Virus record (IMG/VR): IMGVR_UViG_3300034101_003180
Coordinates: 1-64,000 of that record
DNA length: 64,000 nucleotides
Direction: 5' to 3' (one strand)
Source: a virus
In this document: in pieces, positions 4,682 to 63,469 of the stretch
Position numbering within the stretch: the first letter of the stretch is position 1
How the letters are laid out: each line of letters opens with the position of its first letter
Notes under the pieces: model-generated
Seen by the model: only the letters and a program-made list of their open reading frames with translations
What the model was told of the DNA's origin: nothing
Databases searched by the model: none
Translations under genes and position numbers: made by a program

Positions 4682-6292
4682 ATGACAGATGTAAATGTAA
4701 CGGTTGTAACATCAACCCCAAATCTAATAGAAGTAATTACACAAGGTAGCGGATCTGCTGGTGCTTCTGGTACTCCCGGAGCAAAGGGAGCCACAGGAGC
4801 CACTGGTGCTACAGGAGCCACAGGAGCCACAGGAGCCACAGGAGCCACTGGTGCTACAGGAGCCACAGGAGCCACAGGAGCCACTGGTGCCACAGGAGCC
4901 ACAGGAGCCACAGGAGCCACTGGTGCCACAGGAGCCACTGGTGCTACAGGAGCCACAGGAGCCACAGGAGCCACTGGTGCCACAGGAGCCACAGGAGCCA
5001 CAGGAGCCACTGGTGCTACAGGAGCCACAGGAGCCACAGGAGCCACTGGAGCCACTGGTGCTACAGGAGCCACAGGAGCCACAGGAGCCACTGGTTTACC
5101 TGGGGATATATACTCCACACAATCTACAGATTTTATTAATTTAAATACCTTGTCTATAAATGACACCTTAACATTAAGCATACCAAGTGGCTTGGCTTAT
5201 ACTAAGGTTCAATCTATCAGAGTTGCACACAGCAATACACAATACATAGATGCTGAAATTTCTCAATATATAGGAACAAATTTAACTTTTATTGCAAAAG
5301 GTATAACAGGAAGTGGTAATGTTAGCCCATGGGATATAAATCTAGCTGGCGCAATTGGTCAGAAAGGTGATCAAGGAGTTCAAGGCATAACAGGAAACAC
5401 GGGTGCCACGGGAGCAACTGGTGCCACAGGAGCCACAGGAGCAACTGGTGCCACAGGAGCCACGGGTGCTACAGGAGCCACGGGTGCTACAGGAGCCACG
5501 GGTGCCACAGGAGCCACGGGTGCCACAGGAGCCACGGGTGCTACAGGAGCCACGGGTGCTACAGGAGCCACGGGTGCTACAGGAGCCACGGGTGCTACAG
5601 GAGCCACGGGTGCTACAGGTCCGGTTGGACCCCATGTTGTTAGTTTAAATGGATTGAGCGGTGGTGTAACTCTTTATGGTGGAACTGGTATAAATTTAAT
5701 TTTATCATTACAAGGAATTACAATATCCTCTTCTACATCTCAAAGTGGATCTTCTGAAATTTCTTCTTTAACTCCTGCTGGAATCACAGGTGATATAGTG
5801 GGTTATAGAAATAGTTCTTGGGGAATAATTAAACCAAATACTGTTTCTATGCCTCTTCCCAATCTTGGAAATATATTATCAATTATTGGAGGATTTACTT
5901 CATGGAATGTTGCTCCACAATTTAGTCCAGGATTTCAAGGAAGATATTTGGGGAAAGGTACATTTTTAGTACATAATACAGAATATGTTGACGCCACTTT
6001 GTTTGGGACCAATTCTATATTATTAGCATATGATAATAGAGTTGACGGAAATGCAGTTGCTTCTGCAACTAAAATACTTCAAGGCGATGGAATAACATTT
6101 CCACTTTTTGTTGGTTCTGGTGAAGCTAGAAGTTATACTTTTTTAAATAGTAACGGTAATTTTGAAACTAGAGATTGGTACAATGGTGGTGCACCATCAA
6201 CAACTCACGTTGGATGGGCCATTCGATTAAGTGGAGTAACTTCTGGTGGTTTAGTTGGTGGCGCATTTGGTGGAGGTATACAAACAGTTTAA
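4682..6292 (+). CDS. Collagen-like fibre protein with Gly-Ala-Thr repeats
   Basis: A 536-residue protein. A short N-terminal domain (1-35) is followed by 34 Gly-Ala-Thr triplets (36-137), a globular spacer (138-240), a second tract of 24 triplets (241-312), and a C-terminal beta-rich domain of about 220 residues. Gly-X-Y tracts form trimeric triple helices in phage fibres. Thr in position Y could be O-glycosylated, as in bacterial collagen-like glycoproteins. It starts one base after the preceding stop. The tracts are almost perfect 9-base DNA repeats, so their length should vary by slippage. Host attachment is inferred. Confidence 0.85.
4787..5092 (+). repeat. Tandem 9-bp repeat encoding 34 Gly-Ala-Thr units
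   Basis: Consecutive GGA/GGT-GCC/GCT-ACA/ACT units run without interruption. Synonymous changes form a higher-order pattern in which GGTGC(T/C)ACAGGAGCC blocks recur. This marks past unequal crossing-over or slippage. Confidence 0.95.
5402..5617 (+). repeat. Tandem 9-bp repeat encoding 24 Gly-Ala-Thr units
   Basis: A second tract in the same gene. It is dominated by an 18-base unit, GGAGCCACGGGTGCTACA, so its synonymous pattern differs from the first tract (ACG rather than ACT). The two tracts have therefore been expanding separately. Confidence 0.95.
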
Positions 6293-47359: not shown

Positions 47360-47968
47360 ATGTACGATATCAATATCCCACATTTTTATTGTTTGTTAAG
47401 AAAAGAGCATCTTTACCAAAACAAAGATCATTTCTTTGAATATGAAAAGGTCGCAGTCTTTGGGGCACAATCAAGTGCTGGAAAGGCTTTGTTGTTTACA
47501 GTAATGTTGGATAACGGAACAATAAGAAGTAGAGTTCCAATTCATATGTTATGCAGTAAAGAAGGCCCATCAGATCCATTAGATTACTTGCAACTTTGGG
47601 ATTGTTTTTCTGAAAATGTTACAGTCACAACTTATAGTTTTTTAAAGGGTGCCAGAGCAAAAGTTATATTTAAAGATAAAAGCCACTCTTGGGGAAATTA
47701 TAAAATGACATTTGATTGGTATGATAACCCATACAGCAACGAACCATCTCAATACAAATGTCTTCACATGATTGAACTGGATAATGGAAATTATGCTCTA
47801 CAACCAAACAATAGAATATTTTGGAAAGAAATGTCTTTCACAACCAAGCCATTTCCAGAAAAACCAGATTATAAAGTTGACACACAGGAGTATAGATGCG
47901 AGAATAAAAGCGATAGATGGATTATAAGTGATGATGATAATTATTATTATGATATAAATCCTACATAA
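47360..47968 (+). CDS. Unidentified protein starting 2 nt after tRNA-Tyr
   Basis: A 202-residue protein with mixed strands (MYDINIPHFYCLLRKEHLYQNKDHFFEYEKVAVFGAQSSAGKALLFTVMLDNG) and aromatic-rich loops (FDWYDNPYSNEPSQYK). The frame stays open into the tRNAs, but the ATG at 47360 is the first outside them. No ribosome site can exist in the 2-nt gap. Proteins of this look with an AVFGAQSSAGKALLF-like segment occur in marine myophages, function unknown. It lies between tRNAs and the tmRNA. Confidence 0.65.
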   Translation: MYDINIPHFYCLLRKEHLYQNKDHFFEYEKVAVFGAQSSAGKALLFTVMLDNGTIRSRVPIHMLCSKEGPSDPLDYLQLWDCFSENVTVTTYSFLKGARAKVIFKDKSHSWGNYKMTFDWYDNPYSNEPSQYKCLHMIELDNGNYALQPNNRIFWKEMSFTTKPFPEKPDYKVDTQEYRCENKSDRWIISDDDNYYYDINPT

Positions 47969-48172
47969 TCATGGTATTGTTGATATCGGATAGAAATGCA
48001 TATGACACGGGAGTTCGAATCTCCCCGGATCCACTTTACGGGTCCGACAGGCATCGATCAGTGCAGAGTATTGAAGAAGGAGATACCCGACACGGGTAAC
48101 AAGTGTCGTAAATAAACAGTTGCAAATATAAAAGCCGCACCAATGCGGATGGCTGCTTAAAGCAGTGGGGTT
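47969..48172 (+). ncRNA. ssrA: Circularly permuted (two-piece) tmRNA
   Basis: The acceptor piece comes first: T-arm GGGAG-TTCGAAT-CTCCC (48009-48025) and acceptor strand CGGATCC (48026-48032), discriminator A. A 6-nt spacer follows, then the 5' acceptor strand GGGTCCG (48040-48046), which pairs over 7 bp. GTGCA (48061-48065) can pair with TGCAT (47997-48001) as helix 2. Pseudoknot 1: ACCC/GGGT (48085/48094) with GACAC/GTGTC (48089/48103). The tag frame begins GCA at 48122 and reads ANIKAAPMRMAA, stop TAA at 48158 in a CTGCT-TAA-AGCAG hairpin. It would rescue stalled ribosomes and tag proteins. The 5' limit of the acceptor piece is approximate. Confidence 0.85.
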
Positions 48173-48173
48173 T

Positions 48174-48208
48174 CCCGGTTTTCCCGCGACTGAAAAACCG
48201 GGTTTTTT
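48174..48208 (+). terminator. Rho-independent terminator of the tmRNA
   Basis: CCCGGTTTT (48174-48182) pairs with AAAACCGGG (48194-48202), followed by six T. It ends the tRNA/tmRNA transcript 6 nt before a late box. Confidence 0.9.
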
Positions 48209-48213
48209 ATTGC

Positions 48214-48221
48214 CATAAATA
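48214..48221 (+). promoter_or_regulatory. Late promoter CATAAATA
   Basis: It lies 5 nt before the ATG at 48227, right after the tmRNA terminator. Confidence 0.72.
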
Positions 48222-48226
48222 TCTTC

Positions 48227-48739
48227 ATGCAGCACCCGAATGAGGGATTTATTAGAAATTTTTTAGGCACCGACAAAGCCTACAAAGAACAACTATTAGC
48301 TGAAGAGAAAAAGCGAAGAGTTAATGAGTATTTTGCTTGTAAGAAAAATAAGCAAAATATTCTTACAGAGCAAAGCAAAAATTCTATCAACAAAACTATT
48401 GAAAAAGTTTATTCAAATAGAAAATCAATTTCTTTGAATGAACAAAGAATAAATCCAAAGGAATGGAAGTTAATAAACACAGAATACGGTTTGTTTTATT
48501 ATAATGAAAAACAAGATCTATGGATGAATACTTTTGGTGTTATTAAAAAATCAATTACAGAATTTATTCAAGTAATAGATTACAATGTAATTGATACCGA
48601 TTCACCAAAAAGAAAAACACCAAATGCACCATCTAATTTCCAAGTTGAAATTTTAAATGAATTTGGTGATGTTAATTTAACTTGGAATGATAATTCTGAT
48701 AATGAAAGTGGATTTGCAATTTATATAACTCAACAATAA
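48227..48739 (+). CDS. Late protein with partial fibronectin III-like C-terminus
   Basis: A 170-residue protein. The N-terminus contains a helical peptide ending in LLAE (possible head-protease site), then a Lys/Asn/Gln-rich linker. KEWKLINTEYGLFYYNEKQDLWMN is a separate beta element. The C-terminus (APSNFQVEILNEFGDVNLTWNDNSDNESGFAIYI) is the first part of a fibronectin III domain and is cut short by the stop. A late promoter fixes the start. The next gene begins 3 nt later and also ends in an Fn3-like segment. Confidence 0.6.
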   Translation: MQHPNEGFIRNFLGTDKAYKEQLLAEEKKRRVNEYFACKKNKQNILTEQSKNSINKTIEKVYSNRKSISLNEQRINPKEWKLINTEYGLFYYNEKQDLWMNTFGVIKKSITEFIQVIDYNVIDTDSPKRKTPNAPSNFQVEILNEFGDVNLTWNDNSDNESGFAIYITQQ

Positions 48740-60225: not shown

Positions 60226-60604
60226 AGATTGGGAAAGATTGATGTGAGGTAGGTAAAAGATTTTAAAGATTTTTAAGATAAGTTAGAGTTAAAGACCCTC
60301 TCACACACTCTCAAAGGCCCTTTAAATGCCATTACAGAGGCTTTTAGACGCTTTATGGCCCGCAGCATGCCCAAATAACCGACCTCCTATAAGCCATCCT
60401 AGGCTGTCAAGCAAATAATAGCAAAATATTTAATAATTTTGACAAATTTACAGCCCATCCGCGACCCCCATGGTCTGCAAGGGGCCTCAGAGTGACAAAA
60501 TTAAGAAAATTTATAACAATTTTACATCCCGTCCATAATTTTCATCCTGTCCAGTAAATTATTCTTTATATCCCGTCCTAGGTCTTGTCCTAGCTGCACT
60601 GGGC

Positions 60605-60901
60605 CCCATAACCCGGATAGTAGTGATTATTATTATTTTTATGGGGCCTGTCCGGCTGAATCCTGTCCCATAACCAGCAGGTAGCCCAGTACCAAGCCCG
60701 ATAACATAGCCACAGTTATCAGAACCTTCCAGAAGGGTCCGATAACAGTATAGCACAAAGCCCGATAACTGCAAGAGTTATGGGATCCATGATCATCGAT
60801 ATTATGGGTCTCAGGACTACGTGTATTATGGGGCTCAGTGATCAAGGTCCCATAACTATAGCATGCAGGTCCGATAAGTCAAGGATCCAGTGGCCAATAA
60901 C
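60605..60901. repeat. Array of 13 ATAAC iterons in both orientations
   Basis: The core CC(C/G)ATAAC or close variants occur at 60605, 60667, 60697, 60738, 60761, 60849, 60871 (ATAAG) and 60894, and inverted (GTTATGGG, ATTATGGG, TTATGGGG, GTTATC) at 60639, 60715, 60777, 60801 and 60825. Three copies share the extension ATAAC..TATAGC. Spacing is about 20-60 bases. Confidence 0.7.
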
Positions 60902-61014
60902 TTGGACCAGGCTCCCAAGCACCAGAGCTCGGAGCTCTGACTCATCCAGTCCAAGAATATTATTATTCTTTGCGGGGTCCATCCCGTCCCGTCCAGGCCG
61001 TCCCAGGCCGTCCA

Positions 61015-61064
61015 GCTACTATCCGAGAAATCCAGAAGGTAAAGGCACCCTTCTGGATAGTAGC
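61015..61064. repeat. Hairpin element, copy A
   Basis: GCTACTATCC (61015-61024) and GGATAGTAGC (61055-61064) are inverted repeats. Inside, a second ATCCAGAAGG (61030-61039) pairs with CCTTCTGGAT (61049-61058). The two ATCC copies compete for the same GGAT, so the hairpin has two possible registers. Copy B is at 63424. Confidence 0.75.
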
Positions 61065-61083: not shown

Positions 61084-61126
61084 CATAGGACCAGTCCAGG
61101 CTCTCTCCTTCCTGGCTGGTCCTATG
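61084..61126 (-). terminator. Long hairpin after the VWA gene
   Basis: CATAGGACCAG + CCAGG (61084-61100) pairs with CCTGG + CTGGTCCTATG (61111-61126) with one bulged T. It lies just downstream of the minus-strand VWA gene. No T-run follows, so termination or mRNA stabilisation is inferred. Confidence 0.55.
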
Positions 61127-61144: not shown

Positions 61145-63331
61145 TTAGGCGGTAAGCCCTCCGAAGGCAGAGAGGGAGTAGAGTCCCTGATCCATCTTGC
61201 GGAGGGGCTGTCCCGCGATGATGTCCACATACTTGGAGAGGAACACGCGGCTACCTCCACGCTGCCCCATCGTCTTGACGAAGGTGTTCTTCACCTTGAC
61301 GAAGGAACCCTTCTCAGCAATCGCGTCCTCGTCCTTGACGATCTTGGGGGTCTTGATGAGGAAGAACGCATCGTATCCGGGGAAGGTGTCCTCCACGACG
61401 AGGATGCAGCCGTCCTTATACTGCTCACGGGCCTTCAGGTAGCGGGGAGCGTCCTCAATGCGGTAGGAGCGACCCCGGACACTCACCCACTCCTTCTGAG
61501 TGACGCAGAAGTTTTGGTAGTCGTGTTCGGAGAGGTTACGCTGACCGACGAACATCCCGACGATCCGGGCATTGAGGGTAGACCGCAGAGACTCCATGAT
61601 CGTGGCGATCACTCCGTTGGGCAGAGTCACGGCGTAGTTTTCGCAGGGGAACCGAATCACGGTATCGCTGATCTCGTTGATGACCGTGAGCGAAGTGTTC
61701 TCCCCGGTGCGGTAGAACATCGTACCCGCCTTGCTATCGTCCATCACGCCGATGCTGTTGGGCTGACCATCCGTGACGAGCATGAGGGTCGGAATCTGAA
61801 TCTTGTTCGCAGTCACCCACTCCTTCATCAACTGCGAAACCATCATCATGGCCTCCACGGTGGGAGTACCGCCCATCGGCAGGAAGCCACGGTGGCCGTC
61901 CTTGCAGTACGAGGTATAGAGTCCCGCGAGAATCTTGTCCCGCTTCTCCTTGCTGTCCGCAGACGAGGCGAGGTTCACCAACTTGCAATTATAAACTCTA
62001 ACCGAAGTCGGGGAGGGATTGACGAGAACGGGATCGGAGGGATGCGTGAACCCGACACCCGCGTAGTCCTCGGGATTCTTCTTGTAATACTCCTTCTGCG
62101 CCTGCTCACGGTCACGGGTGTAGAGCGGGTGCGCCATGTCCGTGAAGGCGTACACCTCAAACGGGATCTTGGCCTTCTCGCAGAACCAAACCAACTGAAG
62201 CACCTGAAGGATGCAATTCCCGATGGACGAAGCCATCGACCCTGAGAAGTCGATCACGAACATGATGCCGTGATTCTTACCCTCCTGCTTGATGATCTTG
62301 GAGAGGAAGATATCGTCGTGAGTCCGGTACTGATGCAGGCGATCAAGGTCGAGCATCCCGGTCTGCTTGGGGCGCTCACGACGAATCTCGTCTGCTGCCT
62401 TACGGCGCTCAAACTGCGCGACCAACTGCCGCACAAACGCATCGGACTCGCTGACGAACTGACGGTAGGGCGGGAGCGGGTCGATGCCAAAGACATGGCG
62501 CTGGCCCATGATCTCCATGAGGTCGGTGGTGCTGACGATCTGCTTGTCCAAGTTGGCAAGCGGGGAGAGCGTGATGGTCGAAGCGTAGAAAGTCTCCCCG
62601 TCCTTCTTGCCGATGGCAGCGGACATATCAAGGAGCTCACTTCCGGGATCACCTTCCCCGGTCATGGAACTGCCCTCACCGGGAACGACCTTGCCCGTCT
62701 TGTCCCCCTTGCCGTTGCCCTGCGCTGCAAACTTCTTCTTCAGCGCATCAACAGACTTGGCGAACTGCTGCGAACCGTACAGACGCTTGGCAAGGTCGAT
62801 CACCTCATCGAAAGTCTCAACGGCAAGCACCTCGGCCACCACGGCCATCTCGTCCTCGCTCATGGCGAAGGAGAGGAATCCGGGAATGCCCCACTTGAGG
62901 TAGGTGTTGAGGCGGTTCAGGGCAGATGCCTTGCTGAAGTCCTTGCCCTTGAACTTGAAAAGGTCGGTGTCGATGATCTCCTTGTAGCCCAAGAAGAAGT
63001 CACGCCGCGTCCCCGGATACTTGTCCTTCATCAGACGCTCAATGCGGACATCCTCAATGACATTCGCAATGATCTGAAGGGTCTGAATGCAGTAGCCCTC
63101 CTCGCCTGCCTGCTTGAGCAGCACCTCGGAACGCTCATAGGGAGTCCACAAGGCGTGGCTGATCTCATGCGCGACGAGCATGGACTGTAGGGTTTCGGAG
63201 ACATTCCAAACGGGCATGACGAGGTGGCGGTTCTTGACATCGAAGGATGCCGTGCCTGCACTAGCGTCAAAGGCGAATGAAATGTTCTCGGTGGCGAGGG
63301 CGCGGGCAAAGATGGAGAGAGACTTGTTCAT
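61145..63331 (-). CDS. VWA/CobT-like protein with HEXXH motif
   Basis: A 728-residue protein. The N-terminus has LVAHEISHALW (H55-E56-x-x-H59) and NVIEDVRIERL, a zinc-peptidase-like site. The C-terminal half is a von Willebrand A domain with MIDAS DFSGS (D361, S363, S365) and a TDGQP loop, as in CobT and MoxR-linked VWA proteins. Cyanophage genomes carry similar CobT/peptidase-like genes beside a MoxR/CobS ATPase. The partner would lie beyond this window. It is far more GC-rich than the phage core. A weak -10 (TAAGAT) ends 6 nt before its ATG, with no ribosome site. Confidence 0.8.
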   Translation of the reverse strand: MNKSLSIFARALATENISFAFDASAGTASFDVKNRHLVMPVWNVSETLQSMLVAHEISHALWTPYERSEVLLKQAGEEGYCIQTLQIIANVIEDVRIERLMKDKYPGTRRDFFLGYKEIIDTDLFKFKGKDFSKASALNRLNTYLKWGIPGFLSFAMSEDEMAVVAEVLAVETFDEVIDLAKRLYGSQQFAKSVDALKKKFAAQGNGKGDKTGKVVPGEGSSMTGEGDPGSELLDMSAAIGKKDGETFYASTITLSPLANLDKQIVSTTDLMEIMGQRHVFGIDPLPPYRQFVSESDAFVRQLVAQFERRKAADEIRRERPKQTGMLDLDRLHQYRTHDDIFLSKIIKQEGKNHGIMFVIDFSGSMASSIGNCILQVLQLVWFCEKAKIPFEVYAFTDMAHPLYTRDREQAQKEYYKKNPEDYAGVGFTHPSDPVLVNPSPTSVRVYNCKLVNLASSADSKEKRDKILAGLYTSYCKDGHRGFLPMGGTPTVEAMMMVSQLMKEWVTANKIQIPTLMLVTDGQPNSIGVMDDSKAGTMFYRTGENTSLTVINEISDTVIRFPCENYAVTLPNGVIATIMESLRSTLNARIVGMFVGQRNLSEHDYQNFCVTQKEWVSVRGRSYRIEDAPRYLKAREQYKDGCILVVEDTFPGYDAFFLIKTPKIVKDEDAIAEKGSFVKVKNTFVKTMGQRGGSRVFLSKYVDIIAGQPLRKMDQGLYSLSAFGGLTA

Positions 63332-63423
63332 GCGTGTATCTTACCATACCGGGGTGCGAAATTGCAAGCCCATACTAAAGTTTTTTTAAAGTCCTATAAC
63401 CGGCGGGGGGTCCATGGTGTCCG

Positions 63424-63469
63424 GCTACTATCCGGGACCATCCAAAAGCAGCTGCTTTTGGATAGTAGT
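63424..63469. repeat. Hairpin element, copy B
   Basis: GCTACTATCC (63424-63433) and GGATAGTAG (63460-63468) match copy A. Inside is a perfect 24-base palindrome (63440-63463) with centre CAGCTG. Again two ATCC copies compete for one GGAT. Copies A and B bracket the VWA gene. Confidence 0.75.

Follow-up and report, generated by a model that had tools for sequence, protein, structure and literature searches.

A dense array of short repeats lies at positions 60605-60901 of the 64,000-nucleotide stretch of viral DNA analysed here (the window), in approximately 1 kb between convergent genes, 3' of a minus-strand gene of the VWA type. The question raised by this locus is whether the array represents a distinct origin of replication, a binding region for a repressor or packaging factor, or a recombination hotspot, all of which were put forward in a preliminary description of the DNA. 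The window has the look of a fragment from a T4-like phage, with replication genes recognized through the reading of the open reading frames (ORFs) and a DNA polymerase approximately 41% identical to those of Synechococcus myoviruses. It also contains a predicted tmRNA gene (47943-48251, tag ANIKAAPMRMAA), which lies among several tRNAs and matches the Rfam family of permuted tmRNAs, and an ORF at 4682-6292 with long Gly-Ala-Thr (collagen-like) repeats, which probably encodes a fibre-like protein.

The 13 copies of an 8-base core that were first reported are an overcount, although the strong enrichment itself is real. Seven exact copies of CC(C/G)ATAAC are found in the array, against 0.03 expected and a maximum of two in 3000 local dinucleotide shuffles, and the relaxation of the ends to CCNATAA results in 12 copies, against 0.36 expected and a maximum of three. 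This density is not matched elsewhere in the contig, the full 64,747 bp of which contain 11 exact copies, only four of them outside the array. The sense (minus-strand) form of the motif is GTTAT(C/G)GGAC, and the 12 TTATNGG boxes of the array occur in both orientations, as originally described, with eight in the sense orientation (starting at 60900, 60877, 60855, 60768, 60745, 60704, 60673, and 60611) and four inverted (60639, 60778, 60802, and 60826). The upstream part of the array consists of three sense boxes at intervals of 22-23 bp, followed by three inverted boxes at intervals of 24 bp. The base-composition boundary reported beside the array is present, as a step in the GC content from about 37% to about 57%, as are the five ATCC(C/T)GTCC repeats, all in one orientation. 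On the minus strand, these repeats read GGAC(A/G)GGAT, with three at 60526-60578, and two more at 60660-60668 and 60981-60989; in two relatives, they are nearly confined to the GC-rich island described below.

The iterons of plasmid and phage origins are short repeated sites approximately 22 bp apart, near a promoter, and the present array is similar in this respect. In an iteron-type origin, an initiator would bind the 22-24 bp repeats and open an AT-rich stretch, and the small gene and promoter found here would form part of the origin region, which is consistent with the spacing of part of the array, the gap between the convergent genes, and the AT-rich stretch with TTGTCAAA repeats found downstream of the array in most relatives. 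However, the constant, helix-phased direct repeats of an iteron array were not found, given that the 22-24 bp spacing is restricted to part of the array in the window and gives way to intervals of approximately 14-44 bp in the relatives, and the same box is present at many ordinary promoters of the island. Neither in the window nor in two longer relatives of 117-137 kb does the cumulative GC skew, which also follows transcription in phages of this type, reach an extremum at the array, which leaves the proposal of a distinct origin unsupported. The window also has replication genes of the T4 type, as read from the ORFs and confirmed for the polymerase, and the neighbours of the array, which were inspected for an initiator gene, are the VWA-type gene and a small membrane ORF. 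An origin is considered improbable.

The relatives of the locus were located by means of the VWA protein, which has 728 amino acids (phrog_459, "peptidase") and is encoded at 61145-63331 on the minus strand. This protein was searched for in viral contigs, both alone and aligned with the first relative, and a pattern scan added one further relative. Once distant matches (L028-L030), loci ending before the region, and near-duplicates had been left out, 15 distinct relatives were counted, and all the relatives found are approximately 50-55% identical to the window in the VWA protein. Among the cultured phages, the search for close DNA relatives returned no meaningful match, and the VWA protein is less than 60% identical to all of their sequences, with 27-30% identity in the best rows. 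Bacterial and archaeal genome contigs, scanned with the VWA alignment, yielded no relative and hence no clue to the host.

The position of the locus downstream of the VWA gene is kept in the 15 distinct relatives, and boxes are kept in 14 of them; in one contig (L010/L021), the promoter has been kept and the boxes have been almost completely lost. Neither of the outcomes that the preliminary description put forward as refutations, an equal density of the core at other places or a lack of conservation in relatives, was thus observed. The order of the elements is also conserved, beginning with a hairpin with the loop GGAAGGAGAGAGCC, a CTACTATC...GATAGTAG hairpin, a TTGAC-N-TATANT promoter, and GACTGTTCATGCG, followed by GTTATCGG boxes, GGACAGGATTC, a second CTACTATC, and the GGAC(A/G)GGAT repeats. 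The first hairpin lies directly 3' of the VWA gene in the window (minus strand, 61084-61126, around 61099-61112), and its loop is invariant across the aligned relatives, with a stem that varies in sequence. The loop was dropped as a marker for relatives because it is so widespread among viral contigs that it is uninformative. The second hairpin (61016-61063) is terminator-like in the relatives, where it is followed by a run of T, and CTACTATC...GATAGTAG pairs around terminator-like hairpins recur between the genes of the island, both in the window (here, and at 63425-63468) and in the relatives. The CTACTATC copy at 60616-60623 (minus strand) corresponds, in the relatives, to YYP codons near the 3' end of the small ORF.

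The promoter of the array is found on the minus strand of the window as TTGACT-N16-TATAGT. The -35 element (60877-60882) is identified by a match to the TTGAC-N-TANNNT pattern at 60882, in a position homologous to that in the relatives, and the -10 element (60855-60860) has a box immediately after it, an arrangement shared with the relatives. The TATAGC that was initially interpreted as an extension of the core turns out to be the reverse complement of this -10 box. In the window, the first box precedes the -35, the second overlaps the spacer between the -35 and the -10, and the third directly follows the -10. In most of the relatives, a box is kept 14-15 bp before the TTGAC, and a variant of the box follows the -10, whereas in the window, the first box and the -35 are separated by 9 bp instead of 14 bp, which is off the helical phase. 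The spacing within the array also differs between the window and the relatives, and its geometry is thus not conserved.

Two long contigs have an island of approximately 12 kb with a GC content of 55-65%, within a genome of 30-40% GC, and both leaderless promoters and boxes cluster there. This island represents 10-11% of the length of these contigs, and contains all seven boxes of one and 10 of the 11 boxes of the other. The promoters were scanned for independently of the box, as TTGAC or TTGCA, N16-18, TANN(A/C)T, and then ATG. With these patterns, which were chosen after the first relatives had been viewed and then run on longer stretches that overlap them, the -10 and the ATG in the relatives were separated by exactly 6 nt at 100 promoters, by 7 nt at eight, and by any other distance between 0 and 20 nt at 11. 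The island promoters are thus predicted to be mostly leaderless. In the islands of the relatives (L157-L165, e.g., L158 and L161), most genes appear to be leaderless, with their own TTGAC-N17-TACAAT promoter ending 6 nt before the ATG, and many of the proteins start with MSTT or MNTT. The VWA gene of the window is also leaderless by prediction, given that its promoter (63332-63400, minus strand) has the same layout as those of the island, that is, the box GTTATAGGAC (63400-63391), 23 bp, TTGCAA, 18 bp, TAAGAT (63343-63338), 6 bp, and the ATG at 63331, which places the end of the -10 within the 6-7 nt before the start codon that define a leaderless promoter of the sigma70 type. Leaderless bacterial genes have been described with a TA-rich -10 signal approximately 10 bp before the start codon and no leader (PMC3160421), whereas the genes predicted to be leaderless here belong to a T4-like phage and are concentrated in a single GC-rich island, each with its own promoter with a full -35 and -10.

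The sequence upstream of the 102 leaderless promoters gave 28 occurrences of the box, none of the reversed pattern, and one of the reverse complement, and approximately three quarters of these promoters have no box. In nine relatives, a box could be linked to a promoter and a start codon in 33 instances, in which the gap between the box and the -35 was 14-15 bp (eight links), 23-27 bp (14), 32-35 bp (nine), or 38 and 46 bp. The position of the box has a helical phase of R = 0.67 at 10.5 bp, with a naive p value of approximately 3e-6, which is optimistic, given that the relatives are metagenomic and mutually related. This spacing in helix turns before the -35 leads to the box being read as the site of a transcription regulator, and, together with the overlap between the array and a promoter, favours the binding region among the options first proposed. 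The sites of class I and class II activators, such as CRP, are found upstream of the -35, with the allowed positions one helix turn apart, and the present box is similar in both its location and its steps.

It is considered probable that the array is a cluster of putative DNA-binding sites (GTTATSGGAC) for a sequence-specific transcription regulator of the GC-rich island of this T4-like lineage, and it is most likely the densest cluster of the box of this regulator. The enrichment of the box over chance is found in the window, and its helix-phased position relative to predicted promoters in the relatives. At the ordinary promoters of the island, the -35 is preceded by a single site, at a distance of approximately 14, 24, or 34 bp and on the same side of the DNA, which is the arrangement that a protein in contact with the RNA polymerase, either an activator or a face-dependent repressor, would be expected to have. 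The sites of the array, by comparison, occupy the region before the -35, the spacer, the predicted transcription start, and the body of the gene of a small membrane protein. This spread across the promoter and the gene suggests cooperative binding and feedback control, and the array probably mediates the autoregulation of the small gene. The regulator may be encoded by the phage, and a WYL_2-domain protein, found in the island of one relative (L158:13691-14038, minus strand), is a possible candidate.

The early (UP/-35/TGn/-10) and MotA-dependent middle promoters of T4 are likewise strong promoters of the sigma70 type, with an extra element near the -35 for an additional factor (PMC2988021). 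The MotA box, however, is centred at -30, approximately 13 bp upstream of the -10, and replaces the -35 (PMC2988021), whereas the present promoters retain an intact TTGAC or TTGCA and have the box 14-35 bp upstream of it, in steps of one helix turn. The sequence of the MotA box is also different, and the review of the T4 promoters makes no mention of leaderless mRNAs (PMC2988021). A limited search of open-licence papers found no matching description of the box or the array.

The stretch occupied by the array, which had been taken to be non-coding, is not plainly so, given that its minus strand covers the homologue of a conserved small ORF (60639-60845, 68 amino acids, TTG start), with the homologous core SYRAL...VMGQDSAGQ and one predicted transmembrane helix. 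In every relative that has the ATG of GACTGTTCATG, the ORF extends for 65-127 amino acids from this start, and a transmembrane helix is predicted in all except L013 and L021. The ORF of the window lacks both this ATG and the C-terminal YYPG part, and may be either divergent or decayed; it has no Pfam match, and the search of cultured phages for the small ORF by tblastn returned no match. The pN/pS ratio, calculated from the sum of eight pairs that are related and overlap in part, is 0.65 in frame 0, compared with 1.03 and 1.21 in the other frames. Three close pairs have either no gaps or in-frame gaps, although gaps that are not multiples of three are present in other pairs. These codon tests modestly support the ORF as coding.

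The boxes might then be a by-product of this coding, given that GTTATCGGACT encodes VIGL, which would be repeated in the membrane helix, and VIGL, LIGL, and GYRAL repeats are, in fact, found in the small ORFs. However, the boxes occupy all three frames and are also found 5' of the ORF and at unrelated promoters, and the 49 boxes in the small ORFs of 15 sequences, including the window, exceed five-fold the mean of 9.4 obtained in 2000 synonymous permutations (maximum of 19). This rules out a coding repeat alone and indicates that the nucleotide motif is itself under selection, and it is very hard to see the array as such a by-product.

A further possibility is that the repeats function at the RNA level, forming either a structured 5' region or repeated RNA-protein sites, possibly in a non-coding RNA. 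Part of the motif lies inside a conserved 5' mRNA hairpin, CCGATAACCCCC/GGGGGTTATCGG, which is kept in the relatives with compensatory changes in six of the 19 pairs, and the first 13 nt, GACTGTTCATGCG, are nearly invariant. At other promoters, by contrast, the box precedes the -35 in helix-turn spacing and does not form part of the transcript, and the array coincides with an ORF with codon structure, as indicated by the pN/pS ratio of frame 0. The Rfam covariance models returned no match, which led to the rejection of any known family of structured non-coding RNAs. An RNA element is unlikely as the general explanation of the array, although some copies of the box may act as RNA.

The recurrence of the GATAGTAG/CTACTATC and GGACGGGAT repeats between the genes of the island would be in keeping with a recombination hotspot, a packaging signal, or a mobile intergenic repeat. 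The placement of the boxes is, however, tied to promoters, and no pattern of repeat-bounded insertion was seen, so an element of this type appears highly improbable.

The reading of the array as a cluster of regulator sites can be extended, more tentatively, to an uncultured T4-like phage lineage with a self-contained island of approximately 12 kb, in which most genes would be leaderless and individually promoted, with a subset under the control of a new phage regulator acting through GTTATSGGAC, and the array as a hub over the gene of the small membrane protein. The control of early genes in T4 is a textbook case, and the box bears on the question of how this control is exerted in T4-like phages without the MotA/AsiA system, such as the cyanomyoviruses, in which its absence has been reported (PMC2984593). 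A helix-phased box at leaderless promoters provides a concrete sequence (GTTATCGGAC in probe form) for fishing out the regulator, together with approximately 100 predicted start sites, and is a caution that a phage array with the appearance of iterons may consist of promoter sites.
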